Assembly (NCBI GenBank): GCA_003022385.1 | Contig: PYGV01000021.1 | Location: forward strand, 1 to 35,796 | Length of the DNA stretch: 35,796 bases | Direction of reading: 5' to 3' | Source of the DNA: a filamentous cyanobacterium CCP3 | Lineage (GTDB): Bacteria; Cyanobacteriota; Cyanobacteriia; Phormidesmidales; Phormidesmidaceae | Shown: positions 1 through 19,331 of the stretch, piece after piece | How the letters are laid out: the number at the start of each line of letters is the position of its first letter | Position numbering within the stretch: the stretch's first letter is position 1 | Program-made: the position numbers and the translations under genes | Notes under the pieces: generated by a model | Told to the model about the DNA's origin: nothing | Databases searched by the model: none | The model's input: the letters and a program-made list of their open reading frames with translations, nothing else

Positions 1-135
1 TTATTCTCGATGCCCTACTTCAAACCGCATTCCACAAAGTAGCCTGAATTATGCGCATCTTCATTTTTTATTGGTATAAGCCTAGATCCAGGTAATCAAT
101 GCAGGCACCCAATCCCCAAATAGCTGTGTAGCGGC

Positions 136-789
136 TTAATAGGCCGATCGCATGTCGCCCCGCTCGGCGCGGGCGCTTTCTTTGGCTTTGGCGGCGCTCT
201 TTTTGAGCGCTTCTAGACGCTTGATGTAGCGATCGCGCTGGCGCTTCTTGGGGGTTTGCTCAATCAGGGTTTTGAGCGCGCTGCCCAGGCTCTTGTAGGC
301 GTTGGGCAGGGTGTAGCCAAAGCGGGTGGCAATGGCGATCGCCCGCTCGTCGGCGCTGATGCTCTCCTGCAGGGTTTTTTGGTTGTTGTTGCGCTTGTAG
401 AGCCGCCAGCTAGAGAAGCCGCACAGGCTCAGGGCCAGCATCAGCAGCAGCCCATCCTGCACCCACAGCTCGCCTACGGCACCGCCGAGGCCAATGGCCA
501 GCGCCGCCATCTCCCAGCCGTCGCGGGGGATGGTGTCGTTTTGAATGCGACCCACCTCGTGCCAGAACAGCAGGTTGCGCTGGTCGAGGGCCAGCTGCTC
601 CCACTTGAGCAGATCGACTTGAATTTCGACCTGGTCTTTGCCCAGTTCTTCACAGGTGATCAGCGGCGGGGTAACATCAATGGCTGACTCCACCGTCACC
701 CAGCTTTGCAGCTCGGGGGGCAGTAGGCTTCTCAGACGGCGAAGCTCACCCATATCGGCGCGGGCAGTGGCGGTGGCGTACGAGGTCAT
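136..789 (-). CDS. DUF3318 membrane-associated protein
   Basis: A 217-aa protein that resembles the DUF3318 family, which is conserved in cyanobacteria and has no established function. The N-terminal ~85 residues are soluble and mixed in charge. Residues ~93-130 hold two short hydrophobic stretches separated by an acidic/Trp segment, suggesting a membrane hairpin, followed by a basic boundary (RLYKRN). The C-terminal ~60 residues are very rich in Lys, Arg and Ala and probably helical and cytoplasmic. No catalytic motif is visible. It lies downstream of dusB on the same strand with a 75-bp gap, so co-transcription is possible. No clear Shine-Dalgarno precedes the ATG; an internal ATG at codon 13 is an alternative start. 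The 135 bp beyond its stop codon show no gene. The family call is by recognition only. Confidence 0.75.
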   Translation of the reverse strand: MTSYATATARADMGELRRLRSLLPPELQSWVTVESAIDVTPPLITCEELGKDQVEIQVDLLKWEQLALDQRNLLFWHEVGRIQNDTIPRDGWEMAALAIGLGGAVGELWVQDGLLLMLALSLCGFSSWRLYKRNNNQKTLQESISADERAIAIATRFGYTLPNAYKSLGSALKTLIEQTPKKRQRDRYIKRLEALKKSAAKAKESARAERGDMRSAY

Positions 790-864
790 GGAGATTACGG
801 GGAGGAAACTGCAAATTAAATTTATTAATAGATCCTACCTTAAAGCCCATTAGTCAAGGGTCGG

Positions 865-1941
865 TTATCCGACGGGTAGAACGTCATTACATTTGAACGG
901 CCAGGGCCGGGGGCGTTCGACCGCTGCGATCGCACTGTCTAGCTCAGCGATCGCGCCGTTGAGCAGTGCATACCCGGCCTCGACCGTATCGATTTGGCAA
1001 AGCTGCTGACGCAGGGGGGCGGCCCCCTCAAAGCCTTTGACATACCAGGCCATGTGCTTGCGGGCCTGGTAAATGCCCTTCTGCCCCTTGTACCGCCACA
1101 GCAGGCTCAGGTGCTCGTGGGCACAGCGCAGTTTATCTGTGGGTGTGGGCGCTAGGGGCACAGTGCCGGTCTTGAGAAAAGCGTCTATTTCGCCGACTAA
1201 AAAAGGATAGCCCAGGGTGCCCCGCGAGCACATGACCCCGTCGGCGCCGGTCTGCTCTAGACAGCGCACCGCCGCTTCCACCGAGACAATGTCGCCATTG
1301 GCAATTACCGGAATGCTCAGCGCCGCCTTGACCTGGGCAATCCAGTCCCACCGGGCCGGGCCGTGGTAGCCCTGGCTGCGGGTGCGGCCGTGGAGGGTGA
1401 GCATTTGCGCCCCGGCGGCTTCCATGCGGCGGGCAAAATCAACGGCGTTAATGTGATCGTCATCCCAGCCGATGCGGGTTTTGACCGTGACGGGTACGGA
1501 GACAGCTGCCGCAACGGTGCGCACGATCGCCTCGGCGACTTCAGGCTGGCGCAGCAGCGACGAGCCGCCCCCTTTTTTGGTGATTTTATTCACCGGGCAG
1601 CCCATGTTGATGTCGATGGTTTGGGCTCCTTCGGCTACAGCTTTGCGGGCGGCAGCGGCCATGAAGTCAGGCCGACAGTCAAATAGCTGAATACTGATCG
1701 GCTGCTCGCTGGCGTCGATGTCCATGATTTTTTCGAGCTGCTGGGCGTGACATACCCCGGTGGCCTGTACCATTTCGGTGTAGAGCATGGAGGCGGGGGC
1801 GTAGCGGCGCACCAGCTGGCGAAAGGCGCGATCGGTGACGCCAGAGAGGGGTGACTGTAGCACCCGGCTGTGAACGGTTACAGCGCCGATAGCTAGAGGC
1901 GATCGCAGCCGCTGCTGTAGGGTGGGAGACAGGCTAACCAT
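865..1941 (-). CDS. dusB: tRNA-dihydrouridine synthase, DusB family
   Basis: An FMN- and NADPH-dependent enzyme that reduces uridine to dihydrouridine in the D-loop of tRNA, in the cytoplasm. The 358-aa length is normal for the family. The TIM-barrel N-terminus has the SPLSGVTDRAFR motif (residues ~30-41) and TEMV at ~55. The active-site loop DINMGCPVNKITKKGGG holds the catalytic Cys115. VKTRIGWD, the HGRTRSQGYHG loop and the ANGDI phosphate-binding segment of FMN follow in the expected order. The C-terminal helical domain includes an RKHMAWY segment typical of Dus proteins. It is flanked by the DUF3318 gene downstream and by a 183-bp spacer toward the diguanylate cyclase. The Dus assignment is very secure; the DusB subgroup and exact target position are inferred. 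Confidence 0.93.
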   Translation of the reverse strand: MVSLSPTLQQRLRSPLAIGAVTVHSRVLQSPLSGVTDRAFRQLVRRYAPASMLYTEMVQATGVCHAQQLEKIMDIDASEQPISIQLFDCRPDFMAAAARKAVAEGAQTIDINMGCPVNKITKKGGGSSLLRQPEVAEAIVRTVAAAVSVPVTVKTRIGWDDDHINAVDFARRMEAAGAQMLTLHGRTRSQGYHGPARWDWIAQVKAALSIPVIANGDIVSVEAAVRCLEQTGADGVMCSRGTLGYPFLVGEIDAFLKTGTVPLAPTPTDKLRCAHEHLSLLWRYKGQKGIYQARKHMAWYVKGFEGAAPLRQQLCQIDTVEAGYALLNGAIAELDSAIAAVERPRPWPFKCNDVLPVG

Positions 1942-2124
1942 GTATTTATCAAACGTTACTAATTCGAGTTTCGGGGGCAGCGAGAGGGCAGCTTAGCCGC
2001 TTTAACGGCCAGTGAGACGATCGCAGGCTGAACCGCTTGGAGCTTTGGATCTTGACCTTGCCCAGCGATCGCTACCTGTTGCTCTAGCCTTTGACGTCTC
2101 GTTTAGCCGAGCTGGTGCTAACCC

Positions 2125-4131
2125 CTAGGCTGATTGTATCGGCTCAGACCACAGGCAGTAGGTATTGCGGCCGCTCTCCTTGGCGGCGTAGAGGGCCTGG
2201 TCGGCCCGCTGAATCAAGAGTTCGGTGGATAAGGTCGGGGCCGGGGTCAGAACCGCAATTCCAAAACTGACGGTGACCTGCCCGTACAGGGGCGAGGCCG
2301 CGTTGGGAATGGCCAGACGAGACAAATAGGTTTTAGCTTCTGTGGCCAGGGCGATCGCTCCGGCTGAGGTCGTATTGGGCAAAACCAGGGCAAACTCCTC
2401 CCCCCCGTAGCGGGCGGCCAGGTCGGCAGGTCGTTTGGTCACCTGGTTTAGCAGTCGGGCGATCGATCGCAGGCAGTCGTCACCCGCCAGGTGGCCGTAG
2501 GTATCGTTGTAGCCCTTAAAGTGGTCAACGTCGGCCAAAACCAGGGCCAGGCTGCCCTGTTCGCGCTGCAGCCGCTGCCACTCCTGGGCCAGGTAGCGAT
2601 CGAACTCGCGACGGTTGGCAATCTGGGTCAGCCCATCGAGGTGAGCCAGCCGCCGGAGTTCATCATTGGCCGCCTGGAGCTGCTGATAGAGGGCCGCCTG
2701 CTGCAGCGCCTGACTCAGCTGCATAGCCACTTCTTCAACCAGGCTCAGATCGCTGTGCTCCCACCGGCTGGTTTTGTCGATGCTGCTCAGGTGATTGGGA
2801 GCGGGGCAGGCCCACAGCACCCCCTGCACCTGGTTGTCAATACGAATAGCCGTAGCCAGGTAGGTATTGTCGCCCTGAACCACTAGCTGGGCCGCGTTGG
2901 GGCGCATCTGGAGTGGGTTGACCCGGTAGGGCACCACGATTAGGTCTTGGTCAAGCATGAGCTGCTGCCGCAGCGCCTCAGTAATCTCCAGAGGGGCGAC
3001 AGGCTCACTCAGTGCTGGAGCCTGCACCGTCACCACAAACGGCGTGGGCAGGCTGATCAGATTGTGGCGCAGCAGCGTAATGCCACACTGGTGCAGGTTG
3101 AGGGCGGTGCCCAGGTGCTCTACCGTGCAGGTGAGAATGTGCTGCACATCCAGGCTGGCGCGAATTTCATCCAGAATGTGGTTGAGCAACATCTCCTGGC
3201 GAGCCTGGTGCCGCACCTGCTCAAACAGGCGGCTCTGCTGAATGGCGATCGCCAGGTGGGCCGATATCTCCTGCAGTAGCTCAACCTCATCGGTCAGCCA
3301 CCGCCGGGGCTGGTAGCACTGGTGCACAATCATTAATCCCCACAGGTAGCGGTTCTGCCCCGGCAGGGTGTGGATGATCGGTGCCACCAGGTTGGCCCGA
3401 ATCTCAAAGCTCAGCAGCATGTCGCGGTAGCACTGGCTAACGTTGCCCAGAGCCTCTACATCGTCGATGTACCCAACCCGTCCTGACCAGTACTTAACCG
3501 CGTGCTCCTGGTCAAAGCAGGCATCTTCTACCTGGCGGTGCAGCACGCTGAGGTGTTCATCGAGCACGGCTTCGTGGGTTACCAGGCCCCGCCCATCTTG
3601 GCCAAACTGGTAAATAACGACGCGATCGGCCAGGATTTGCTGGCGTACATCCTGCACAGCCGTCTGCAAAATGGTGTCTAGATCGAGGGTGTTGTGCAGC
3701 CGCTGCAGGCTGTCTTTCAGCAACGAGGGGCGGATGGGCCTGGCGGCAGCAACGTCAATCCAGCGACCGACGCGAGCCGCTACATCGGCGGCTATGAAGG
3801 GAGACTCTAAATAGTCTGCGCCACCCACAGCAAAGACCTGCTCTCGACTAGCCGCGTCTTTAAAGGTGCCAGCAAAGATTAGCGGTATGGCGGCTGTAGC
3901 AGGGTTGCCCTTCAGCTTGCGGCCTAAGTGGTAGCCGCTGCTGTCGGCCCCAGCTACCTGCAAAAGGATTAGATCGGGCCATCGCTCCGGTCGCTGGGGT
4001 TGGTGTAAGATGTCGGCCTCGGTGCGCACCTGCACCTGATAGCTGGCAGCGACAAGCATTTGAACCAGGACCTCGGTCTGGTGGGGGGGCGCTTCTGTAA
4101 CGAAAACCGTGGCTGGCTGAAGTAACGTCAT
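2125..4131 (-). CDS. Diguanylate cyclase: pseudo-receiver, cyanobacteriochrome-like GAF, GAF, GGDEF
   Basis: A 668-aa sensor predicted to make cyclic di-GMP. Domain order: receiver-like fold ~7-125, GAF1 ~145-300, GAF2 ~312-480, GGDEF ~492-660. The GGDEF domain is intact: the active-site signature is GGEEF at 576-580, and an RxxD inhibitory site (R567-D570) lies five residues before it, so product inhibition is expected. The receiver fold lacks the usual phospho-acceptor Asp (the strand reads DLILLQVAG, with Gln58) and the conserved Lys (ESPF, Ser110), so it is probably not phosphorylated. GAF1 carries DACF (Cys205), then QCY (Cys234), then NLVAPI and LWGLMIVHQC...PRRW. These are hallmarks of bilin-binding DXCF cyanobacteriochromes, and the Cys-Cys spacing of 29 is close to that of TePixJ. 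The usual His after the second Cys is Tyr here. GAF2 shows no such cysteines in the right context. It is downstream of the adenylate cyclase gene on the same strand. Confidence 0.9.
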   Translation of the reverse strand: MTLLQPATVFVTEAPPHQTEVLVQMLVAASYQVQVRTEADILHQPQRPERWPDLILLQVAGADSSGYHLGRKLKGNPATAAIPLIFAGTFKDAASREQVFAVGGADYLESPFIAADVAARVGRWIDVAAARPIRPSLLKDSLQRLHNTLDLDTILQTAVQDVRQQILADRVVIYQFGQDGRGLVTHEAVLDEHLSVLHRQVEDACFDQEHAVKYWSGRVGYIDDVEALGNVSQCYRDMLLSFEIRANLVAPIIHTLPGQNRYLWGLMIVHQCYQPRRWLTDEVELLQEISAHLAIAIQQSRLFEQVRHQARQEMLLNHILDEIRASLDVQHILTCTVEHLGTALNLHQCGITLLRHNLISLPTPFVVTVQAPALSEPVAPLEITEALRQQLMLDQDLIVVPYRVNPLQMRPNAAQLVVQGDNTYLATAIRIDNQVQGVLWACPAPNHLSSIDKTSRWEHSDLSLVEEVAMQLSQALQQAALYQQLQAANDELRRLAHLDGLTQIANRREFDRYLAQEWQRLQREQGSLALVLADVDHFKGYNDTYGHLAGDDCLRSIARLLNQVTKRPADLAARYGGEEFALVLPNTTSAGAIALATEAKTYLSRLAIPNAASPLYGQVTVSFGIAVLTPAPTLSTELLIQRADQALYAAKESGRNTYCLWSEPIQSA

Positions 4132-4502
4132 CTCTGAAATCCTCTACCAGAGCCGCGCCCGACTCTGGCGCGGCTGAATTGAACCCCACCTCGACCTTAG
4201 ACAGCTGGCCCGGCTGCCGTCTTTAGGACGACTAAATGAACGACTAAATCAACGGCTATCCTTAGTTGCTGCGTTGACCTTATCCTTCCCCCGAGCGCCA
4301 TTGGCCTAGCACCGAGCCCCAGGTGAGGCCACGTATGTAAACCATGATTACGCTACTATCATAGGCGTCGAATGTGCCGCTGGTTAATGGGCTGAAAACA
4401 TGGTGGTGGCCTGTTGCCAGAACTGCGGGAGCTGGCCCACAACCATCTACTGTAGGTTGGCCATCAAAAGGCCTAACCGCTGTGGCGATCGCCACAGCTT
4501 GG
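4132..4502. other. 371-bp spacer between the two cyclase genes
   Basis: No convincing gene was found here. Short frames of ~70 codons exist on both strands but lack family resemblance and a ribosome binding site. The part next to the adenylate cyclase stop holds a strong palindrome, annotated separately as a probable terminator. The remainder is the leader of the diguanylate cyclase gene, which suggests that this gene has its own promoter. No confident -35/-10 pair was identified. Confidence 0.5.
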
Positions 4503-4506
4503 TTAG
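4473..4506 (-). terminator. Probable terminator of the adenylate cyclase gene, built on a HIP1 palindrome
   Basis: GCTGTGGCGATCGCCACAGC (4479-4498) is a perfect 20-bp palindrome centred on the HIP1 octamer. Flanking CTAACC (4473-4478) and GGTTAG (4501-4506) extend the stem, with TT as a bulge. On the minus strand the stem overlaps the stop codon (4503-4505) and is followed by GGCCTTTTGATGG, a weak four-T tract. The structure is seen directly; terminator function is inferred, and the short T tract makes it weaker than a textbook example. Confidence 0.5.
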
Positions 4507-5990
4507 AGTCGCCCTACCAACCAGTAGGTCATCATTTGGCCACGGCCTTTAACCGCCACGTAGCCGCGTTGCTCAAACTGAAACTGGTCCTTCAGTCGTT
4601 CATATAGCTCTGGGGTGACCTGAATGCGCTGGGCTTCGCCGGTTGCCTCCATGCGGCTGGCGATGTTGACGGTGTCGCCCCAGAGATCGTAAGCAAACTT
4701 GCGCCGCCCAATCACCCCAGCAACAACCGGTCCGGTATTGATCCCCACCCGAATTTGAAAGGTTTTGCCATCGGGACGCTGAAACTGCTTGATTGCGTCG
4801 CAAATATCGAGGGCAAACTGCGCGATCGCAACGTCGTGGTCATCGTTAGGGATGGGCAGGCCCCCGGCCACCATGTAGGCATCGCCAATCGTCTTAATTT
4901 TTTCTAGGCGGTGAAACTCAGCCAGCTGATCGAACATCGAGAAAACTTCGTTGAGCATTTTGACCAGCTGGCGCGGCGTCATCTGGCTAGAGGCGGCGGT
5001 AAAGTCGACTAGATCGGCAAACAGCACGCTGACCTGGTCGAGGCTTTCGGCAATGGTGCGGGCTCCCCCCTTGAGGCGCTGAGCAATGCGGTAGGGCAAA
5101 ATGTTGACCAGCAGGCGATCGGCCTGCTGGCGCTGCTGGCGCAGTTCGGTCTCCATCTGGCGCCGTTCGCTAATGTCGTGAACTATGCCCTCGTAGTGAA
5201 GGAAAGTGCCCTGCTTATCCCACACCTTCCAAATGTCTTCGCTGACCCAAAAGGTGGTGCCGTCTTTGCGAAACACCTCTGATTCGGCGTCGGTGATTTT
5301 GTCAAAGCGGTTGAGATAAACCGCTAGCTCGTCGCGGCGCTTGGGCTGAAGATAGATCTGGCGGCTAATATCGGCGACGGTGGCCACCATCTCCTGGGCT
5401 GACTCGTAGCCGTAGAGACGCGCCATGGAGGGGTTGACGCTGAGCAACTGCCCCTTTGATGAGGCTTTGAAGATGCCCACCGTGGCGTTCTCAAAAATGC
5501 TGCGGTAGTTCATCTCGACCGCAATCAGGGCCTGCTCCATCTGGGTGCGCTCGTGCACCTCTTGGATGAGCCGGGCGTTTTGCCGGCTGAGCTGCTGCCG
5601 CTGCTGGGCCAACCGCAGCTGGTTCTGCACTCGCACCAGCACTTCCTGCACGGCAAAGGGCTTGGTGATGTAGTCGGTCGCTCCGGCTTGAAAGGCTTTG
5701 ACCTTGTCGATGGAGTCAACCAAAGAACTCAGCACAATCACCGGGATCTCGGTGGTGAGAGGGTTTTGCTTGAGCTGCTGACAGAGGCTATAGCCGTCCA
5801 TGTCGGGCAGCAGCAGATCGAGTAACACCAGATTGGGCCGAGACGCCAAAATGGATGCGATCGCCTCCTGACCACTTTCGGCCACCTGAATTCGGTACCC
5901 TTGCTGGCTCAGCAGCCGCTGCAGCAGGCACGATGTTTCAGTATCGTCGTCGACGATGACTAGATCAATGGCGGCGAAGGCATCATCCAC
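4503..5990 (-). CDS. Receiver-PAS-class III adenylate cyclase
   Basis: A 495-aa signalling enzyme predicted to convert ATP to cAMP under control of a phosphorelay. The receiver domain (~8-125) is intact: acidic pocket D14-D16, phospho-acceptor D58 (LVLLDLLLPDMDG), and K110 in TKPF. A coiled segment follows, then a PAS/PAC sensor (~158-278, ending GIVHDISERR). The short helix QQADRLLVNILPYRIAQRLK is the usual signalling linker in front of cyclase domains. The catalytic domain (~318-490) has metal-binding D326 and D370, and transition-state N442 and R446. K366 and D435 occupy the purine-selecting positions in their adenine-specific form, so adenylate rather than guanylate cyclase is expected. 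The N-terminal region has no transmembrane helix, so the protein is cytoplasmic. No cognate histidine kinase lies in the window. Confidence 0.93.
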   Translation of the reverse strand: MDDAFAAIDLVIVDDDTETSCLLQRLLSQQGYRIQVAESGQEAIASILASRPNLVLLDLLLPDMDGYSLCQQLKQNPLTTEIPVIVLSSLVDSIDKVKAFQAGATDYITKPFAVQEVLVRVQNQLRLAQQRQQLSRQNARLIQEVHERTQMEQALIAVEMNYRSIFENATVGIFKASSKGQLLSVNPSMARLYGYESAQEMVATVADISRQIYLQPKRRDELAVYLNRFDKITDAESEVFRKDGTTFWVSEDIWKVWDKQGTFLHYEGIVHDISERRQMETELRQQRQQADRLLVNILPYRIAQRLKGGARTIAESLDQVSVLFADLVDFTAASSQMTPRQLVKMLNEVFSMFDQLAEFHRLEKIKTIGDAYMVAGGLPIPNDDHDVAIAQFALDICDAIKQFQRPDGKTFQIRVGINTGPVVAGVIGRRKFAYDLWGDTVNIASRMEATGEAQRIQVTPELYERLKDQFQFEQRGYVAVKGRGQMMTYWLVGRL

Positions 5991-6215
5991 AACGCGGGGG
6001 CGGGCAGGCTACGTCATTGGTCTAAGCATACGGGCATTGAGTCAAAACGATGCACCGGATCTATACCCTCGGCTCTAGGGTAGCGCCGTTACTCTACCCA
6101 CAGCCGGGGAATCACCTGAATTATTCAGCATTCTGGTGTTCAGCACTTTGGCGGTGGGCGCCTGGCCATAGGCAACAGTTATCGGCACCTTAGACCACAC
6201 CTTAGCGCCCCTACC

Positions 6216-7322
6216 TTAACGCACCTTGAGAGAGCCGCCGCGATCGCGGTAGCCAGTCACTAACCCCTGCCGAAAGGTGACTTCGCCGTCGCTGAAATGA
6301 AACACTTCCTCGCAGTTGGTGTCGTTGCGGCTAATCGCGATGGGGGTTTGCGCCTCGGCTCGCAGTACCTCGGCGCGGCTCGATCCCATTGTCCAGAACG
6401 GCGAGGCGACCTGGTCAGAGGGCGGGGCGGGCAGCTGTAGGGACACCTTGAGGTTGTTGTCGGAGTTTAGGTAGCCAATCACCTGGCCATTTTCAAACAG
6501 CACCGAGCTTTTGCCGTAGTAAAAGGTGGTAAACCGCTCAGAGGTGTACTGTTCCTGGCGGGTGGGCGCCCCCTGAATTTGTACCACATCGGCCTGGGTA
6601 GACCCTAGCGTCCAGCTGCCCTGGGCGGCTCTGGCCGACACGACGGTTGACTCATTGGCGAGCACCCGCAGATTGCCGTCGGCGTTGTCATACTGTTTGA
6701 CATAGCCGTTGTGCAGTTCGACAAAGCTGTTGCCGTAGCGCAGGGTTTGCTGGCAGGCGGTGTGGTACTGCATGGTCTGGGAGGGTGCCCCCTGAATCGC
6801 CATCACCAGGTCGTGGTCAGAGCCCAGTGTCCAGTAGGTTTTATCGGTGGGGGTGCGGCGGTTGCGGGTGCCTACGTTGCTCTGAGCGTACTTTAAGTTG
6901 CGCTCGTACTCGACCACTTTTTGCTGGGCCAGGGCGGCGCTGGGGTTGGTCTTGGGCACCGATCGCATGTGGGCGATCGCCTGCTGCCAGAGCATAGCGA
7001 CCTCGGTCCAGTCTTCGCTAAATTCTGCGGTTTGGGTCAGCTCTGCGGCAGCCATAGCCTGGCTGGCGCCCTGGCGAAAGGGGTCGTTCTGGGCAGCGGC
7101 GGTGGCTCGATGAGGCCAGGACCACGATCGCGCCTGGGGAACCAGCAGAAAAGCGCTGGCGGCTAGGCCCAGCCCCACGGATAGCCCCAGGGCGCTCCAG
7201 GTGAGGCGCTCTCGCAAGGTTTGGCCAGGGCGCTTGAGTTGGAAGGTGTAGAGGGTTTGGGGATTTTGCCCGTCTAGCTCAGGGTGGCTATGCTTAGTCA
7301 TAGTAGTTCGTGAGGAGTACAC
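6216..7322 (-). CDS. Membrane-anchored protein with three BamE-like repeats
   Basis: A 368-aa protein of unknown function. Residues ~44-61 form one hydrophobic helix after a basic N-terminus, so it is probably a signal anchor with the rest in the periplasm. Residues ~98-150 look helical. Three repeats of about 58 residues follow at ~163-220, 236-293 and 309-367. Each starts with an aromatic residue and WT[LM]GS, continues through a V..IQGAP-type turn, then a YG.S.V.F.NG.V.GY strand pair, and ends with LKV or LRV. The GS...V....G.P start resembles the BamE/SmpA fold, but that is an inference. The third repeat is the most divergent and has lost the IQGAP turn. An internal ATG at codon 8 (7301) is an equally good start; neither has a clear ribosome binding site. 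It is divergent from recJ. Confidence 0.7.
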   Translation of the reverse strand: MYSSRTTMTKHSHPELDGQNPQTLYTFQLKRPGQTLRERLTWSALGLSVGLGLAASAFLLVPQARSWSWPHRATAAAQNDPFRQGASQAMAAAELTQTAEFSEDWTEVAMLWQQAIAHMRSVPKTNPSAALAQQKVVEYERNLKYAQSNVGTRNRRTPTDKTYWTLGSDHDLVMAIQGAPSQTMQYHTACQQTLRYGNSFVELHNGYVKQYDNADGNLRVLANESTVVSARAAQGSWTLGSTQADVVQIQGAPTRQEQYTSERFTTFYYGKSSVLFENGQVIGYLNSDNNLKVSLQLPAPPSDQVASPFWTMGSSRAEVLRAEAQTPIAISRNDTNCEEVFHFSDGEVTFRQGLVTGYRDRGGSLKVR

Positions 7323-7465
7323 AACCCCAGCAGCCTGCTCAACCAGGGGCTAACGCAGCGTTTGCTTGGGGCTTCCGTTAAAAGTGGTAAAGGTGGGCCT
7401 GTAAATATCGGGAGCGGTGGCGGCTTTTCAGCTCCAGTGTGCCGACCTAGGAGAGATATATAAGT

Positions 7466-7639
7466 ATGAATGTATTCAGCCAGATGGACGAAGTTTCAGT
7501 ACTTGTAACTCTATCGCAGGACATAGATCTAGAATTTCTAGGCCATCTTGATTTTACGGAAGCTTATTTAAACTGCCCTTATCCGTCCGTCCTGCATCAC
7601 TCTGAATATCACTTTTTCCTGACTGAATTCCTTAATTAA
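7466..7639 (+). CDS. Candidate small ORF, 57 aa, unknown
   Basis: An ATG frame of 57 codons ending in TAA, located 14 bp before recJ. AGGAGAG (7449-7455) lies upstream; its GGAG core is 12 nt from the ATG, a slightly long but usable spacing. The predicted peptide is acidic, starts MNVFSQMDEVSVLVTLSQD, and has many Leu, Phe, His and Tyr residues. It has no recognisable domain, signal peptide or membrane helix. The segment is clearly more AT-rich than the flanking genes, so codon use differs from the neighbourhood. It occupies most of the 331-bp spacer between the repeat protein and recJ; the rest of that spacer shows no gene. It could be a genuine small protein, a leader for recJ, or a chance frame in AT-rich DNA. 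Confidence 0.3.
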   Translation: MNVFSQMDEVSVLVTLSQDIDLEFLGHLDFTEAYLNCPYPSVLHHSEYHFFLTEFLN

Positions 7640-7653
7640 TCTTCATTAACCCT

Positions 7654-9978
7654 ATGCATGCTCTAGCGTCGCCCTGGCAGCTGCCGACCGATGACGTTTG
7701 CCCCGATCGCTGGGTCGAGGCGGTAGGTGAAGCGCTGCCGGGGGCGGGGCGTCGGCTCGCTCAGGTGCTGTGGCAGCGCCAGGTGTGTGCGCTCGAAGAC
7801 CTGGCGGGCTGGCTCAACCCGGCGGCCTATCGGCCCACACCGGCCAGCGCGTTGGGCGACGATATGGCGATCGCCGTTACCCGACTGCAGCAGGCGATCG
7901 CCCGCCAGGAGAAAGTGGCTATCTGGGGCGATTTTGATGCCGATGGGGTGACGGCTACGGCGGTACTTTGGGATGGGCTGGGCCAGGTGATCCCCAAGGG
8001 CGATCGCCTCACCTACTTCATCCCCAACCGGCTGAGCGAATCCCACGGGCTGTCGCGACGCGGGCTTGAGCAGCTAGGCGAGTGGGGAGCTACTCTGCTG
8101 GTGACCTGCGACACGGGCAGCACTAGCGGCACCGAAATTGCCTACGCCAAGAGCTTGGGGATGGCGGTGATTGTGACCGATCACCACACCCTGCCCGCAG
8201 GCAGCATAGGCGCCTTGGCGCTGATTAATCCCCGCCGTTTGCCACCGGAGCATCCCCTGGCGACGCTGTCGGGGGTGGCCGTGGCCTACAAGCTGCTGGA
8301 GGGGCTGTATGACTCGCTCGACGCGCCACCGCCCCTGCCCCTGGACCACGTGCTAGACCTGGTGGCGATTGGCCTGATTGCCGATCTGGTAGAGCTGCAG
8401 GGTGACTGTCGCTATCTGGCCCAGCGGGGGCTGGCGCGGCTGCAAACCCAGACCCAACCCCAGCCGCCCTACCCGCGACCGGGGCTGGCCGAGCTGCTGG
8501 CGCTGTGTAAGCGCACGGGCGATCGCCCGACAGATATTTCCTTTGGGCTGGGGCCGCGCATCAATGCGGTCAGCCGCATTCACGGCGATGCCAGCTTTTG
8601 TGTAGAGCTGCTGACCAGTCAGGACCGCGATCGGGCTAAACCCCTAGCCTACGAAGCCGAGTTGGCCAACACCCGCCGCAAAGCCCTACAGCGCGACCTC
8701 TACGAGCAGGTGATGGCGCGGCTAACCCAGATTGATCTCGCCACTACCCGCTGCCTGGTGCTGGCTGACGAGCAGTGGCCAACCGGCATTTTGGGCCTGG
8801 TGGCGGGGCAGGTGGCTCAGGCGCTGGGGCGACCCACTATTCTGCTGCGCATCGACTCGCCCAGCGAGGATGGCCGCCCTCGCCTGGCGCGGGGGTCCGC
8901 GCGTTCGGTGAAGGGGCTCGATCTGTACCAGCTGTTTCAGGCCCAGGCCGAGCTGCTCACAGGCTTTGGCGGACATCCTCTGGCGGCGGGGCTGACGCTG
9001 CCGGTGGAGCATATCGAGGTGCTGGCGGCGGCGCTCAACCGTATGGTGCGCGAGCAGCTGGGCGGCGACGGCGTGCCTCAGCCCGGTTTAGAGATCGATT
9101 TGACCGTGACCGTGGCTGAGCTGGGCCAGCCCCTGTTTCGCGAACTCAAGGGGCTGGAGCCCTGTGGCATGGGCAATCCGGTACCGAAGCTGCTCGTCCG
9201 CAACGTCTGGTTTCAAAATGCCTTTCACAGGCGGCTGCGCGATCGCCAGAACCAGACCGTTGGATTTATCAAAACTGAGTTTGAGCTGTGGGACGACGGG
9301 GCCCTGGCTGGCTTTCCGGGCGAGTGGTGGGGGCACTATCGCGACGAGCTACCTGCGGGCCGCTGCGATGTGGTCGTGGAGCTAGACTTCAACAGCCACA
9401 ACGGCTACCACGTCAAACTGGTCGATGTGCGTCCGGTTCTGAATGCAGCAGCTGAGCCGCCGCCTCAGCCAGCTGCTTCAATTTTGGATTGGCGGCAGAC
9501 GGTTCCAGCTGAACCAAAAGCCGTGCTCAAGGTAGACCAAGCGCCGGTCCAGTGGAGCGATTGGCAAGCCTGGCAGCGGCAGGCGGCACAGAGTGGGTTG
9601 CCCCTGGCCCTGACTTTTTCTGTCGAGAACGATGACCTATCGCCGGTTGAGATTTGGCAAGAGCTGGTAGGGATGGCCAAGTATCTGGCTCGTACGGGGC
9701 AAGGGGTAGCGCGATCGCAGCTCAGCGATCGGCTGCACCTGTCGGCTACCAGTCTGTCGCTCGGCCTGGCCGCCCTGGCGACGGCTGGGTTTGAGGTCAC
9801 AGCCTTAGAGGATGATGCGATCGCCGTCCGAGCTGACCCGGTTCCCGGTGACTCTAAGTTGGAGCCCAGCGCAGAGCCTGATATAGAAATGGTGCAACGA
9901 TTTTTAGATGCAGTACAAGAGGAGCAGTTTCGCCGGCGCTATTTTGCCCAGGTGCCGATAACGGCGCTTTCCTGGTAG
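7654..9978 (+). CDS. recJ: Single-stranded-DNA-specific exonuclease RecJ
   Basis: A 5'-3' single-strand DNA exonuclease of the DHH superfamily, acting in recombination and in base-excision and mismatch repair. Motif I is GDFDADGVTA (D93, D95, D97), motif II is TCDTGSTS (D153), and the DHH motif is D176-H177-H178. The DHHA1 region includes a glycine-rich FGGHPLAAG segment, and an OB-like region follows (ELKGLEPCGMGNP). At 774 aa it is about 200 residues longer than the E. coli enzyme. The extra C-terminal ~190 residues contain a helix-turn-helix-like stretch (ARSQLSDRLHLSATSLSLGL...), which I recognise only as an accessory winged-helix-like region. No Shine-Dalgarno is visible before the ATG at 7654. 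sfsA follows after 30 bp and is probably co-transcribed. Confidence 0.95.
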   Translation: MHALASPWQLPTDDVCPDRWVEAVGEALPGAGRRLAQVLWQRQVCALEDLAGWLNPAAYRPTPASALGDDMAIAVTRLQQAIARQEKVAIWGDFDADGVTATAVLWDGLGQVIPKGDRLTYFIPNRLSESHGLSRRGLEQLGEWGATLLVTCDTGSTSGTEIAYAKSLGMAVIVTDHHTLPAGSIGALALINPRRLPPEHPLATLSGVAVAYKLLEGLYDSLDAPPPLPLDHVLDLVAIGLIADLVELQGDCRYLAQRGLARLQTQTQPQPPYPRPGLAELLALCKRTGDRPTDISFGLGPRINAVSRIHGDASFCVELLTSQDRDRAKPLAYEAELANTRRKALQRDLYEQVMARLTQIDLATTRCLVLADEQWPTGILGLVAGQVAQALGRPTILLRIDSPSEDGRPRLARGSARSVKGLDLYQLFQAQAELLTGFGGHPLAAGLTLPVEHIEVLAAALNRMVREQLGGDGVPQPGLEIDLTVTVAELGQPLFRELKGLEPCGMGNPVPKLLVRNVWFQNAFHRRLRDRQNQTVGFIKTEFELWDDGALAGFPGEWWGHYRDELPAGRCDVVVELDFNSHNGYHVKLVDVRPVLNAAAEPPPQPAASILDWRQTVPAEPKAVLKVDQAPVQWSDWQAWQRQAAQSGLPLALTFSVENDDLSPVEIWQELVGMAKYLARTGQGVARSQLSDRLHLSATSLSLGLAALATAGFEVTALEDDAIAVRADPVPGDSKLEPSAEPDIEMVQRFLDAVQEEQFRRRYFAQVPITALSW

Positions 9979-10008
9979 GGTGGGCACTGCCTACTAAACA
10001 TCCCTGCC

Positions 10009-10743
10009 ATGGCCACCGACTGGTTTTACCCCTTTCCCCCTCTGATCGAGGGCACGCTGCTGAGGCGCTACAAGCGGTTTTTTGCCGATATTGAGCTCGA
10101 GACCGGCGAGGTAATTACTGCCCACTGCCCCAATACTGGGCCAATGACGGGGGTTTGCCACCTGGACGGACGGGTGCTGGTTTCCCACAGTGCCGACCCC
10201 AAGCGCAAGCTAGCCTACACCTGGGAACTGGCCGAAGTGCGCGACACGGTGCCCACCTGGGCAGGGGTGAACACAGCCCTGCCCAACCGGGTCGTGAAGT
10301 CGCTGCTGGAGGCGCGGCAAATTCCAGAGCTGGGGGAGTACAGCGCCATTCGCCCCGAGGTGCGCTACGGTGGCGACGGCAAAAGTCGCATCGACTTCGT
10401 AATTTCTGGGGAAGATAACCAGATCCCTACCTACATCGAGGTCAAAAACACCACCTGGGCCAAGGGCACCCTCGCTCTTTTCCCCGATACGGTGACGACT
10501 CGCGGCCAAAAGCACCTGAAGGAGCTGGCCGCTCTCATTCCTCAGGCTCAGGCGGTGATGCTGTACTTTATCAACCGCAGCGACTGCACCGACTTTGCCC
10601 CCGGCGACGAGGCTGACCCCACCTACGGCGTGCTGCTGCGGGAGGCGATGCTCAAGGGCGTGAAGGTGCTTCCCTGTCGTTTTGAGATTACGCCAGCCGG
10701 AATTCGGTATTTGGGATTGGCGAATTTAAGGGTGGATCAATAA
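10009..10743 (+). CDS. sfsA: SfsA family nuclease
   Basis: A 244-aa protein of the SfsA family, named in E. coli as a sugar fermentation stimulation protein and since described as a PD-(D/E)XK-type nucleic-acid nuclease. The N-terminal OB-like part contains the family signature CPNTGPM (40-46). The nuclease core is seen as SRIDFVI (D129) followed by YIEVKN (E144, K146), with KGTLALFPD and TTRGQKHLKEL downstream as expected. Length matches the family. It starts 30 bp after recJ on the same strand, so the two probably form a short nucleic-acid-processing operon. It converges on the glycosyltransferase gene. The cellular substrate in cyanobacteria is unknown. Confidence 0.93.
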   Translation: MATDWFYPFPPLIEGTLLRRYKRFFADIELETGEVITAHCPNTGPMTGVCHLDGRVLVSHSADPKRKLAYTWELAEVRDTVPTWAGVNTALPNRVVKSLLEARQIPELGEYSAIRPEVRYGGDGKSRIDFVISGEDNQIPTYIEVKNTTWAKGTLALFPDTVTTRGQKHLKELAALIPQAQAVMLYFINRSDCTDFAPGDEADPTYGVLLREAMLKGVKVLPCRFEITPAGIRYLGLANLRVDQ

Positions 10744-10785
10744 CACATCCGAATCACATAACCCCGATTCCAAACAGGCGACTTG

Positions 10786-10822
10786 CGTAGGGCATAGGCG
10801 CAGCCGAGCCAGGGGCTCTACG
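10786..10822. repeat. Small inverted repeat between convergent genes
   Basis: CGTAGGGC (10786-10793) and GCTCTACG (10815-10822) are inverted with one mismatch, within the 132-bp spacer between the convergent sfsA and glycosyltransferase genes. It could be a degraded MITE-like end pair or a weak bidirectional terminator. There is no T tract. Support is limited to the visible symmetry. Confidence 0.3.
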
Positions 10823-10875
10823 ATGCTTGCCCAGCCCAGTCGGGGGTAGCCAAGGCGAATTCGGTATTAACCCTT

Positions 10876-11637
10876 CTAGCGGGCGGAGTAGGTGAGCGAT
10901 CGCAGGGCAAAGTGGGGCAGCGCCAGCATGCGCCGCCAGCGCCAGGGCTCTTTGTAGAGCCGGTAGAGCCACTCCAGGTGGTTGTCGCACATCCACTGGG
11001 GAGCGCGAGACTTCACCCCCGCCCAGATGTCAAAGCTGCCGCCGACGCCAATCCAAATGCTGTTGGGGCAGAGGTGGCGGTGCTCACGAATCCACAGTTC
11101 CTGCCGGGGAACGCCCATACCGACCAGAACAACGCTGGGCTGAAGCTGCTCCAGGCGCTGCAAAAATTCGGGCTGGTCTTCGGGGCTCAGATAGCCGTGC
11201 TGGGTACCGACAACCTTTAGACCTGCCAGCTGGCGCTGCCAATAGAGACCAGCCCGTTCGGCCACGCTGGGGACGCCACCGTACATGAAAACAGTCTCTG
11301 TCGGCGCCAGGCGCTTAAGTACCGCAGCGGCTAGCTCAATGCCAGGGGCCCGCTCAATGCGCCGACCCCTGGCACGGAAGTATAAAACCACCCCGGCCCC
11401 ATCGGGGATCACCAGCTCAGCATTGAGAATGACCTGGCGCAGGGCCGGGTTTTGGTCGGCCTGCATAGCCATTTCGGCGTTGAGGGTAACTACATGTGCC
11501 CCCTGCCCCTGGCGGTACCGATCGACTAGCCAGCCCGCATAGTCAGCCCGCCAGTGCACGGGCAAGCCCATCACCTTTAAAACTTCTGGGGTATTTGACC
11601 GATCTGCCAACACCATACGCCCCTTCCCAACCTGCAT
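10876..11637 (-). CDS. WecG/TagA/CpsF family glycosyltransferase
   Basis: A 253-aa glycosyltransferase of the family that transfers UDP-linked ManNAc or related sugars onto a membrane polyprenyl-diphosphate carrier during cell-envelope polysaccharide synthesis. The family motifs appear in order: TLNAEM (51-56), PDGAGVV (78-84, with the conserved Asp79), APGIEL, the Rossmann-like FMYGG (117-121), VGMGVPRQE (172-180) and GVGGSFDIWAG (197-207). The C-terminal basic-aromatic tail (EWLYRLYKEPWRWRRM) probably mediates peripheral membrane binding. An internal ATG at codon 8 is an alternative start. There are no other polysaccharide genes next to it, so its product is unknown. It is separated from cpcF (same strand, upstream) by 151 bp. 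Confidence 0.92.
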   Translation of the reverse strand: MQVGKGRMVLADRSNTPEVLKVMGLPVHWRADYAGWLVDRYRQGQGAHVVTLNAEMAMQADQNPALRQVILNAELVIPDGAGVVLYFRARGRRIERAPGIELAAAVLKRLAPTETVFMYGGVPSVAERAGLYWQRQLAGLKVVGTQHGYLSPEDQPEFLQRLEQLQPSVVLVGMGVPRQELWIREHRHLCPNSIWIGVGGSFDIWAGVKSRAPQWMCDNHLEWLYRLYKEPWRWRRMLALPHFALRSLTYSAR

Positions 11638-11788
11638 CTCTAAATGTAAAACGGCCTGGAGTGTAGACAGAATTCTTCAGCAAGGAAACTCAGTCTATGC
11701 GTGTTTCACTCAGGTCGCGATTAACCATAGAGACCATACCTCGAAATTGAGCTAATATGTCGCATTTCTCAACATTCAGGCAAAGGCT

Positions 11789-12454
11789 TTAAGGACGTGC
11801 TTCGAGGGTATCTAAGGCGAGGCGGGCGCGGGCCTGTACGGCTGGGGTTTCGTCGTGCTCAAAGATGCGGCGAAGGGAGGCGAGAATGAGCGGTTTTTTC
11901 TCAGGGTTGACCAGGTCTGTCGCTAGGGTCTGCAGCCCGGCCACCGCAGCGTAGCGCACAACCCATTCTGGGTCAGCGGTGGCCTGAGTGAGCACGTCTA
12001 GCACATCGCTCTGCGCGATCGCCGCCTGGTCGGCAGGCAGCAGCGCCCAGCGAATGGTGCCCAACCCCCGGGCCGCCGCCCGACGCACGCTGAGGGCAAA
12101 GTCACCCCTGGCGGTCTCCAGCAGCACGGGCAGGGCGCGGGGGTCACCAATCAGCGCCAGGGCGCGAATGGCCCAGGCCCGAGCGCCGTAGTTGTAGCCG
12201 TCGATCTGCTCCAGCAGGGCGGGCACGGCAGCGCTGCCCAAAGCGGCTAAGCCATCCACGGCGGCTACGGCGGCACCGGGGTTGTTGTAACCCAGCACCG
12301 TAATCAGGGCGGGAATAGCGGCGACATCTCGCGTGGCGGCTAAATTGTGAACGGCTGCCACCATCGCGCCCTTAGAGTCGGCGGCTTCGATCGCTCGAAC
12401 TAGCTCTGCTACGGTTGCACCCACGCCTGCTTTACCAGTCCTACAACAGCTCAT
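11789..12454 (-). CDS. cpcF: Phycocyanin alpha-subunit phycocyanobilin lyase, CpcF subunit
   Basis: CpcF acts with CpcE as a heterodimeric lyase that attaches phycocyanobilin to Cys84 of CpcA and can also remove it. The 221-aa protein is built of HEAT-like (E-Z type) repeats, seen as recurring AIPALITVLG, AVPALLEQIDG and ALPVLLETARG helices alternating with AVDGLAALG-type helices. The start used overlaps the 3' end of cpcE by 14 bp. A GTG at 12424 would give a shorter N-terminus without overlap, and the first ~10 residues (Cys/Arg/Lys/Gly-rich) look unlike HEAT sequence, so the true start is uncertain. It is the last gene of the cpc operon; no intrinsic terminator is visible after it. Confidence 0.93.
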   Translation of the reverse strand: MSCCRTGKAGVGATVAELVRAIEAADSKGAMVAAVHNLAATRDVAAIPALITVLGYNNPGAAVAAVDGLAALGSAAVPALLEQIDGYNYGARAWAIRALALIGDPRALPVLLETARGDFALSVRRAAARGLGTIRWALLPADQAAIAQSDVLDVLTQATADPEWVVRYAAVAGLQTLATDLVNPEKKPLILASLRRIFEHDETPAVQARARLALDTLEARP

Positions 12455-18587: not shown

Positions 18588-19331
18588 GTGACTTTGCCGT
18601 TATTGACCTATGCTCCGAGCAGCCAAAACCAGCGTGTAGAGGGCTACGAGGTGCCTGGAGACGAGCATTCTGCAATTTTTACACTGGAGCAAAACCACGA
18701 TAAAGCCGATGTTGATGCCCTAGTGACGGCGGCCTATCGGCAAATTTTTCACGAGCAGCAAATGCTGAAAAGCAATCGTCAAACGCTGCTGGAATCTCAG
18801 CTGCGGGGCGGCTTGATTTCGGTCAAAGACTTTGTGCGAGGCCTGGCCACCTCGGATGCCTTTCGCACCTGGAACTATGAGGTCAACAACAACTATCGCT
18901 TTGCAGAGTTGTGTGTGCAGCGTCTGCTCGGCCGAAACATCTACGACGACAAAGAAACCCTGGCCTGGTCCATTGTGCTGGCAACGAAAGGGGTTGAGGG
19001 GCTAGTTGACGCCCTGATGAGTAGTGAAGAATATGTGACTAATTTTGGCGATCGCACCGTACCCTACCAGCGGCGGCGGGTGCTGCCCCAGCGATCGCAG
19101 GGCGACCTGCCCTTTGAGCGCACCCCCCGCTACACCCGCGACCATCTGACCACGCTGGAAGCCCTGGGCTATGACTTTTCGAGCGATCGCCGCCTTGATC
19201 AGGGCGACTGGATGGAAACCCCTGACGGTGTGCGCAAGGCGGCTGGGGCCATAACGGCTGGCCTGGCCATTTTCTTTAGCCTGATAGCGGTAGCCGTGGT
19301 GCTGTCGTGGTTTGGCTGGATCTCGATTTGA
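18588..19331 (+). CDS. cpcL: Membrane-anchored rod linker CpcL (CpcG2-type)
   Basis: A 247-aa CpcG-family linker. Residues ~20-185 form the phycobilisome linker domain (FTLEQNHDKADVDALVTAAY, ISVKDFVRGLATSDAFR, FAELCVQRLLGRNIYDD, SSEEYVTNFGDRTVPYQRRR). The C-terminus is a single hydrophobic helix, ~218-243, with a short polar end. That helix is the defining feature of CpcL as opposed to the core-binding CpcG1. In the family CpcL holds phycocyanin rods at the thylakoid membrane without an allophycocyanin core and is linked to photosystem I energy transfer. The start is GTG, chosen because GGAGG (18573-18577) lies 10 nt upstream. A rho-independent terminator follows, so it is probably a single-gene unit. 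Confidence 0.94.
   Translation: MTLPLLTYAPSSQNQRVEGYEVPGDEHSAIFTLEQNHDKADVDALVTAAYRQIFHEQQMLKSNRQTLLESQLRGGLISVKDFVRGLATSDAFRTWNYEVNNNYRFAELCVQRLLGRNIYDDKETLAWSIVLATKGVEGLVDALMSSEEYVTNFGDRTVPYQRRRVLPQRSQGDLPFERTPRYTRDHLTTLEALGYDFSSDRRLDQGDWMETPDGVRKAAGAITAGLAIFFSLIAVAVVLSWFGWISI

Follow-up and report, generated by a model that had tools for sequence, protein, structure and literature searches.

A probable light-regulated diguanylate cyclase of the SesA kind, with a DXCF-type cyanobacteriochrome GAF domain and a degenerate receiver, in a filamentous cyanobacterium

The gene, its product and its orthologs

The DNA analysed here (the window) is a stretch of 35,796 nucleotides from the filamentous cyanobacterium CCP3 (assembly GCA_003022385.1, contig PYGV01000021.1). 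Its reverse strand carries a gene for a multidomain signalling protein, which lies between a nucleotide cyclase gene and dusB. The features of the locus are as follows.

2125–4131, minus strand: whole gene, 668 aa with an ATG start; receiver-like domain, cyanobacteriochrome (CBCR) GAF1, GAF2 and GGDEF diguanylate cyclase
3772–4104, minus strand: degenerate (pseudo-)receiver, residues 10–120; Pfam Response_reg at 22.1 bits (1.8e-4), under the cut-off of 30.2
3958–3960, minus strand: Gln58 in the position of the phospho-acceptor Asp, by alignment
3802–3804, minus strand: Ser110 in the position of the conserved Lys, by alignment
3241–3684, minus strand: GAF1, probable DXCF-type CBCR GAF, residues 150–297; Pfam GAF and matches to CBCRs in the PDB
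3514–3525, minus strand: DACF motif, residues 203–206, by motif position and alignment; the second cysteine, Cys205, is 3517–3519
3427–3432, minus strand: canonical Cys234 followed by Tyr235 (QCY is 233–235), by alignment; Cys-Tyr also in SesA and SesB
2692–3189, minus strand: GAF2, about residues 315–480, without the CBCR cysteines; second Pfam GAF stretch, with GAF_3 at 333–482 in the ortholog L010
2164–2646, minus strand: GGDEF diguanylate cyclase domain, residues 496–656, by Pfam
2422–2433, minus strand: RPAD (RxxD) product-inhibition site, residues 567–570, by motif position
2392–2406, minus strand: GGEEF active-site motif, residues 576–580, by motif position
4503–5990, minus strand: upstream neighbour, REC-PAS-class III nucleotide cyclase, 495 aa, by Pfam
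865–1941, minus strand: downstream neighbour, dusB (TIGR00737, 418 bits)

Two stretches of the protein pass the Pfam GAF model (4.8e-24), the best of which is 150–297, and the Pfam GGDEF model is matched at 4.8e-52 (176 bits) over profile positions 1–160 of 161. The sequence features expected of a diguanylate cyclase are present, namely GGEEF, RxxD and a full-length GGDEF domain. An earlier note, made from the sequence of the window, had described a DACF cysteine (Cys205) and a QCY cysteine (Cys234) 29 residues apart, followed by NLVAPI and LWGLMIVHQC, and an intact GGEEF motif with an RxxD site. These elements are found in the 668-aa translation, with NLVAPI starting at 247, LWGLMIVHQC at 263, RPAD at 567 and GGEEF at 576. 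The range given there, 2125–4131, is the whole gene; the degenerate receiver went unmentioned and GAF2 undescribed. An Rfam scan of window positions 1–12000 returned nothing at gathering scores, and structure prediction for the full protein from the window, L009 and L010 sequences (mean pLDDT 33.6) gave no model of the pocket.

The protein family was searched in 63 genomes at a cut-off of 1e-100, to which two named contigs (L009 and L010) were added. Twelve genomes encode the protein; seven belong to the same genus as the window, its own included (67–100% identical), and five to other genera, whose proteins (L095–L099) are 40–43% identical over 525–593 residues. Since the L009 protein is identical to that of L089 and L010 is from Nodosilinea sp. 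LEGE 06152, there are eight distinct genus-level proteins in all, with that of the window. DxCF, Cys-Tyr, RPAD and GGEEF are found in all eight, and DxC(F or L) with Cys-Tyr in 5/5 of the other-genus relatives. When the window gene is compared with seven orthologs, dN/dS is 0.13–0.21 for GAF1 and 0.03–0.09 for GGDEF; over all pairs, mean dN falls from 0.302 in the receiver through 0.215 in GAF2 and 0.116 in GAF1 to 0.076 in GGDEF. Among the matches listed from a plasmid collection, all were under 60% identity and none covered 80% of the query. Within the library of open papers that was searched, those on Nodosilinea and cyanobacteriochromes do not name this protein in the beginnings of their abstracts.

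The nucleotide cyclase lies upstream and dusB downstream of the light-sensing gene at all eight ortholog loci (L009 and L089 counted apart). Of the 26 genomes of the genus, some of which are incomplete assemblies, 24 carry the nucleotide cyclase and seven the light-sensing gene. Among the 24, dusB adjoins the cyclase directly in 12, the light-sensing gene sits between them in seven, and the examined flank did not contain dusB in the other five; a second, weaker cyclase copy in one genome (G021) was also examined. The nucleotide cyclase (4503–5990, minus strand) has a well-scoring receiver and is more conserved than the adjoining light-sensing cyclase. Beside it, in the window and in many congeners, is a 368-aa protein (6216–7322, minus strand) for which neither Pfam nor NCBIfam gives a match at 0.001. 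Further along the window, 18588–19331 (plus strand) encodes a Phycobilisome linker polypeptide domain (Pfam, 8.4e-45).

GAF1 as a probable cyanobacteriochrome domain

The Thermosynechococcus sensors SesA, SesB and SesC were located in a genome (G151) that has a GAF identical to the PDB stretch of TePixJ at 151/151 residues, and which is therefore T. vestitus/elongatus or a very near strain. One of its loci (L152) encodes three CBS stretches, a PAS, a GAF and a GGDEF domain (Pfam) and reads DPCF ... DCYRELL. The cysteines of SesA are Cys499 and Cys527. From the DXCF Cys of L152 it is 28 residues to the canonical Cys and 177 to the Arg of RxxD, and SesA numbering is reached via one offset of 4; the RxxD residue of SesA is given as R676 (PMC5871770). 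We take L152 to be SesA (Tlr0924). A second locus (L150, the same protein as L138), with a GAF, a GSDEF-type GGDEF and an EAL domain and reading DSCF ... CYRDLL, fits SesB (Tlr1999) by domain content and genome, as a third (L151), with PAS stretches, GAF, GGDEF and EAL and reading CHRDF, fits SesC.

In the PDB, 22 distinct sequences match GAF1 at 0.001 or below. The best is 6oap (6.3e-36), followed by miRFP nano proteins, 8k9o and RcaE 7ckv, with TePixJ 3vv4 at 3.4e-19; the PDB entries carry the names given by their depositors, 6oap is Anacy_2551g3, miRFP670nano derives from NpR3784, and the protein names of 3vv4 (TePixJ), 3w2z, 5dfx and 6bhn are background assignments. CBCR GAFs head this list, and the match is far beyond chance. 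The DXCF layout proposed in the earlier note also holds on alignment with TePixJ and Tlr0924: both cysteines line up, Cys234 falling on the canonical Cys of TePixJ and SesA, and Asp203, Cys205, Phe206, Gly217, Arg218, Cys234, Leu239, Ala246, Pro251, Gly265, His270, Cys272, Arg276 and Trp278 are common to GAF1, SesA, SesB, SesC and TePixJ. Trp264 is shared with SesA/B/C and is Phe in TePixJ. Both cysteines are present in all of the 15 top-scoring GAFs from outside the genus (among those collected in a table of domains longer than 110 aa); GAF2 of the window protein has neither cysteine.

The host is equipped with the genes for making phycocyanobilin: its genome holds one heme oxygenase match and one bilin reductase match, the latter at 360 bits against NCBIfam phycocyanobilin:ferredoxin oxidoreductase (PcyA; cut-off 206). 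It also has several further CBCR-type GAFs, and its GGDEF matches number 37, partial ones included. Two further proteins of this genome join such domains: L111 (contig C375) is a second GGDEF protein, with an N-terminal DPCF/Cys-Tyr GAF followed by PAS, GAF and GGDEF, and L101 (contig C304) is an EAL-GAF(DTCF/Cys-His)-GGDEF protein, the GAF of which groups with full support with those of L137 and L143, from genomes of another family.

The earlier note had pointed out that the usual His after the canonical Cys is Tyr in GAF1, and had feared unusual photochemistry or loss of bilin binding. Tyr235 is indeed there, but the meaning attached to it falls, because SesA and SesB carry Cys-Tyr and because Tyr is an ordinary alternative to His. 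This was seen in a sample drawn from a TePixJ search of 117 genomes, consisting of 29 newly numbered loci (L181–L209) and 40 of 41 consecutive listed matches (L131, already included, was left out), in which domains under 125 aa were left out and several domains come from one protein. Among 102 GAF domains, 74 have Asp-Xaa-Cys and the canonical Cys, and the next residue is His in 60, Tyr in 14 and never anything else, in a sample biased to His because the TePixJ query is itself a His-type domain. The other 28 comprise 13 with His and one with Tyr after a canonical Cys but without Asp-Xaa-Cys, five with Asp-Xaa-Cys but no canonical Cys, and nine with neither. When 121 dual-Cys rows, 85 with His and 36 with Tyr, are placed on a tree, the residue switches at least 22 times; SesB and L129 are close to each other but have different residues here, as do L125 and L130. 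As SesA, a characterised relative, reads Cys-Tyr, the pair does not stand in the way of normal function, and an objection to DXCF/Cys-Tyr GAFs as bilin sensors is removed by a well-studied light-activated cyclase having the same Tyr. A separate group of GAFs in the sample (L187, L183, L185 and L184) reads D-x-C-I, with Asp or Glu replacing the canonical Cys, and recalls the DXCIP lineage named in PMC6628166.

The phylogeny of GAF1 was examined in three trees. An 81-row tree was built without duplicate copies of a protein (L107, L110, L117, L118, L009, L089 and L138), without Thermosynechococcus stretches no longer than 120 aa, and without the second GAF of either L142 or L131; a 65-row quick tree dropped 16 long or degenerate rows, GAF2 included. 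A 128-row tree, from which the His/Tyr column was excluded, combined rows that carry both cysteines, Asp/Glu and His/Tyr with seven references lacking the DXCF cysteine. In the 81-row tree, the bootstrap of which was still unsettled, GAF1 joins six orthologs in a starred clade inside a 69-row part with eight PDB references and SesA/B/C; this part also contains degenerate GAFs without the cysteines, and is weakly separated (83/54) from the remaining rows. GAF1 lies outside a starred group (96/90) of 11 other GAFs, to which GAF2 of the window protein belongs. Grouping with non-bilin GAFs, which the earlier note had held would speak against a bilin, is not seen in this tree, but the trees are weak: in AU tests on the 65-row quick tree, joining the window clade to eight of those other GAFs is unrejected (p 0.39), and joining it to SesA and SesC is better than the free tree (p 0.76). 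In the 128-row tree GAF1 shares a 24-row fork (SH-aLRT 82) with SesA and SesC, and in the 65-row tree it adjoins L132. A stable place with a named CBCR lineage was thus sought and rejected, there being no supported sister in the 81-row tree and the placement shifting between trees. The stem of the clade is 0.83 (81-row tree) and 0.71 (128-row tree) changes per column. It is residues, scores and conservation that carry the case, and as judged from these the window protein is very probably, in line with the earlier note, a SesA-type diguanylate cyclase regulated by light, with a DXCF-type blue/green CBCR as GAF1.

The colours are the part of this reading with the most serious competitor. At 40–43% identity to SesA (63/159), SesB (70/161) and SesC (62/156) and 29% to TePixJ (44/151), and with a long stem lacking a stable sister, the colour pair cannot be read off a characterised close relative. 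GAF1 could instead be a dual-Cys CBCR that binds phycocyanobilin and has another colour pair, red/blue or with yellow/orange photoproducts, and an activating colour unlike that of SesA. Colours are described as varying across dual-Cys CBCRs (PMC6628166, PMC5240096); AM1_1186g2, a CBCR with the second Cys, is given as red/blue (PMC6628166), and AM1_6305g1 is reported to form phycoviolobilin without needing that Cys (PMC11284453). GAF1 also has five extra residues before the WGL motif (254–258) and one before Cys234 relative to SesA/B/C and TePixJ, and no stable sister among characterised CBCRs. On the other hand, Leu239, at the Tyr/Leu tuning position, is shared with TePixJ and with the majority of the CBCRs described in PMC7504144, whilst SesA, SesB and SesC, which are tabulated as phycoviolobilin proteins (PMC8846402), share DXCF and many neighbouring residues with GAF1. 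Another colour pair is thus a possibility to be kept in mind, though an unlikely one. Much less likely is an ordinary GAF that has kept its cysteines by descent and lost bilin binding, leaving the cyclase to answer another signal: the long stem (0.83 and 0.71) and the unrejected place beside GAFs without the DXCF cysteine (p 0.39) would suit it, but both cysteines are kept in 8/8 genus-level proteins and 5/5 relatives, mean dN is 0.116 in GAF1 as against 0.215 in GAF2 and 0.302 in the receiver, and the landmarks of the pocket are present.

The receiver and its loss

The residues of a phosphorylatable receiver are not there in the window protein (Gln58, Ser110), and we read its receiver as a pseudo-receiver. 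Across the genus, seven of the eight proteins have Gln where Asp would stand and the remaining one has Pro; in place of Lys all eight have Ser, Pro, Tyr or Leu. Of the four domains it is the receiver that varies most (mean identity 61% vs 82% for GAF1). The receivers of four Pfam-scanned relatives from other genera score above the cut-off. The possibility that it was copied from the receiver of the neighbouring cyclase is not supported, as other receivers of the genome score better (C327 at 59.3 bits vs 46.2 for the neighbour). That the receiver is still the main switch, by phosphorylation or through a partner's phosphorelay, with GAF1 only tuning, would accord with the Asp and Lys that L095–L099 keep ahead of a DXC(F/L)/CY GAF, but is the least probable reading given the replacement of Asp by Gln or Pro and of Lys by Ser, Pro, Tyr or Leu in 8/8 genus-level proteins and the low conservation of the domain. 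The window protein is probably free of phosphorelay input, and with a receiver that lacks the phosphorylation residues, light should be its main input. Among the proteins compared here, receiver loss appears to be a less usual trait within an otherwise known kind of protein, and it would offer a natural test of the move from phosphorylation to light alone in such proteins.

Proposed mode of action and comparison with known sensors

As a light-regulated cyclase of the SesA kind, the window protein would hold phycocyanobilin permanently on Cys234, probably turned into phycoviolobilin, and Cys205 would attach to and leave the bilin in the course of the photocycle, giving what are predicted to be blue-absorbing and green/teal-absorbing states. 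The light switch would pass via helices and GAF2 to the GGDEF dimer, where blue light would most likely raise c-di-GMP synthesis, if catalysis is as predicted, and RPAD would provide product inhibition. Light, together with anything bound by GAF2 or the pseudo-receiver, would be the main input in the presumed absence of phospho-control. Diguanylate cyclase activity of SesA is reported to be switched on by blue light, with product inhibition through RxxD (PMC5871770), and blue light to reverse phototaxis through SesA (PMC9090330); by analogy, our best guess is a blue-activated c-di-GMP synthesis that favours aggregation or reversal of movement. More tentatively, it may be that in one genus branch a REC-(PAS)-CBCR-GAF-DGC protein has turned from two-component-plus-light to light-only control, its pseudo-receiver taking no phosphate and perhaps binding a partner or ligand. 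As the gene adjoins a conserved receiver-PAS nucleotide cyclase, one locus would then feed both messengers, putative cAMP by phosphorylation and c-di-GMP by blue/green light. SesA-type light-to-c-di-GMP control would be extended to Nodosilinea-type cyanobacteria by the window protein.

The window protein is a new relative of the known sensors SesA, SesB and SesC and not a new kind of sensor. With SesA, a blue-activated DXCF CBCR diguanylate cyclase of Thermosynechococcus, it shares DXCF, Cys-Tyr and a GAF coupled to GGEEF and RxxD, directly so in SesA; by Pfam, SesA places three CBS stretches and a PAS ahead of a single GAF and lacks a receiver, in contrast to the window protein with its pseudo-receiver and GAF2. 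It was rejected as a SesA ortholog, since the CBS-PAS-GAF-GGDEF order is not matched and receiver-like, GAF and GAF domains stand instead. SesB, a teal-activated CBCR phosphodiesterase, resembles GAF1 in DSCF and Cys-Tyr-Arg-Asp but differs from the window protein in reading GSDEF rather than GG[DE]EF and in its EAL domain. The TePixJ GAF (3vv4), the blue/green DXCF prototype, has both cysteines and most landmarks of GAF1, but reads Cys-His, spaces its cysteines by 28 residues and bears the name of a chemotaxis protein in the PDB. The REC-(PAS)-GAF-GAF-GGDEF proteins of other genera in the family (L095–L099) share the DXC(F/L)/Cys-Tyr GAF, the second GAF and GGEEF with the window protein. Unlike the window protein, they keep the receiver Asp and Lys (5/5), and their gap between receiver and GAF1 is 169–180 residues, compared with 29–35 in the genus-level proteins; a PAS domain was found by Pfam in three of the four scanned (L095 and L097–L099), L095 being the one without.
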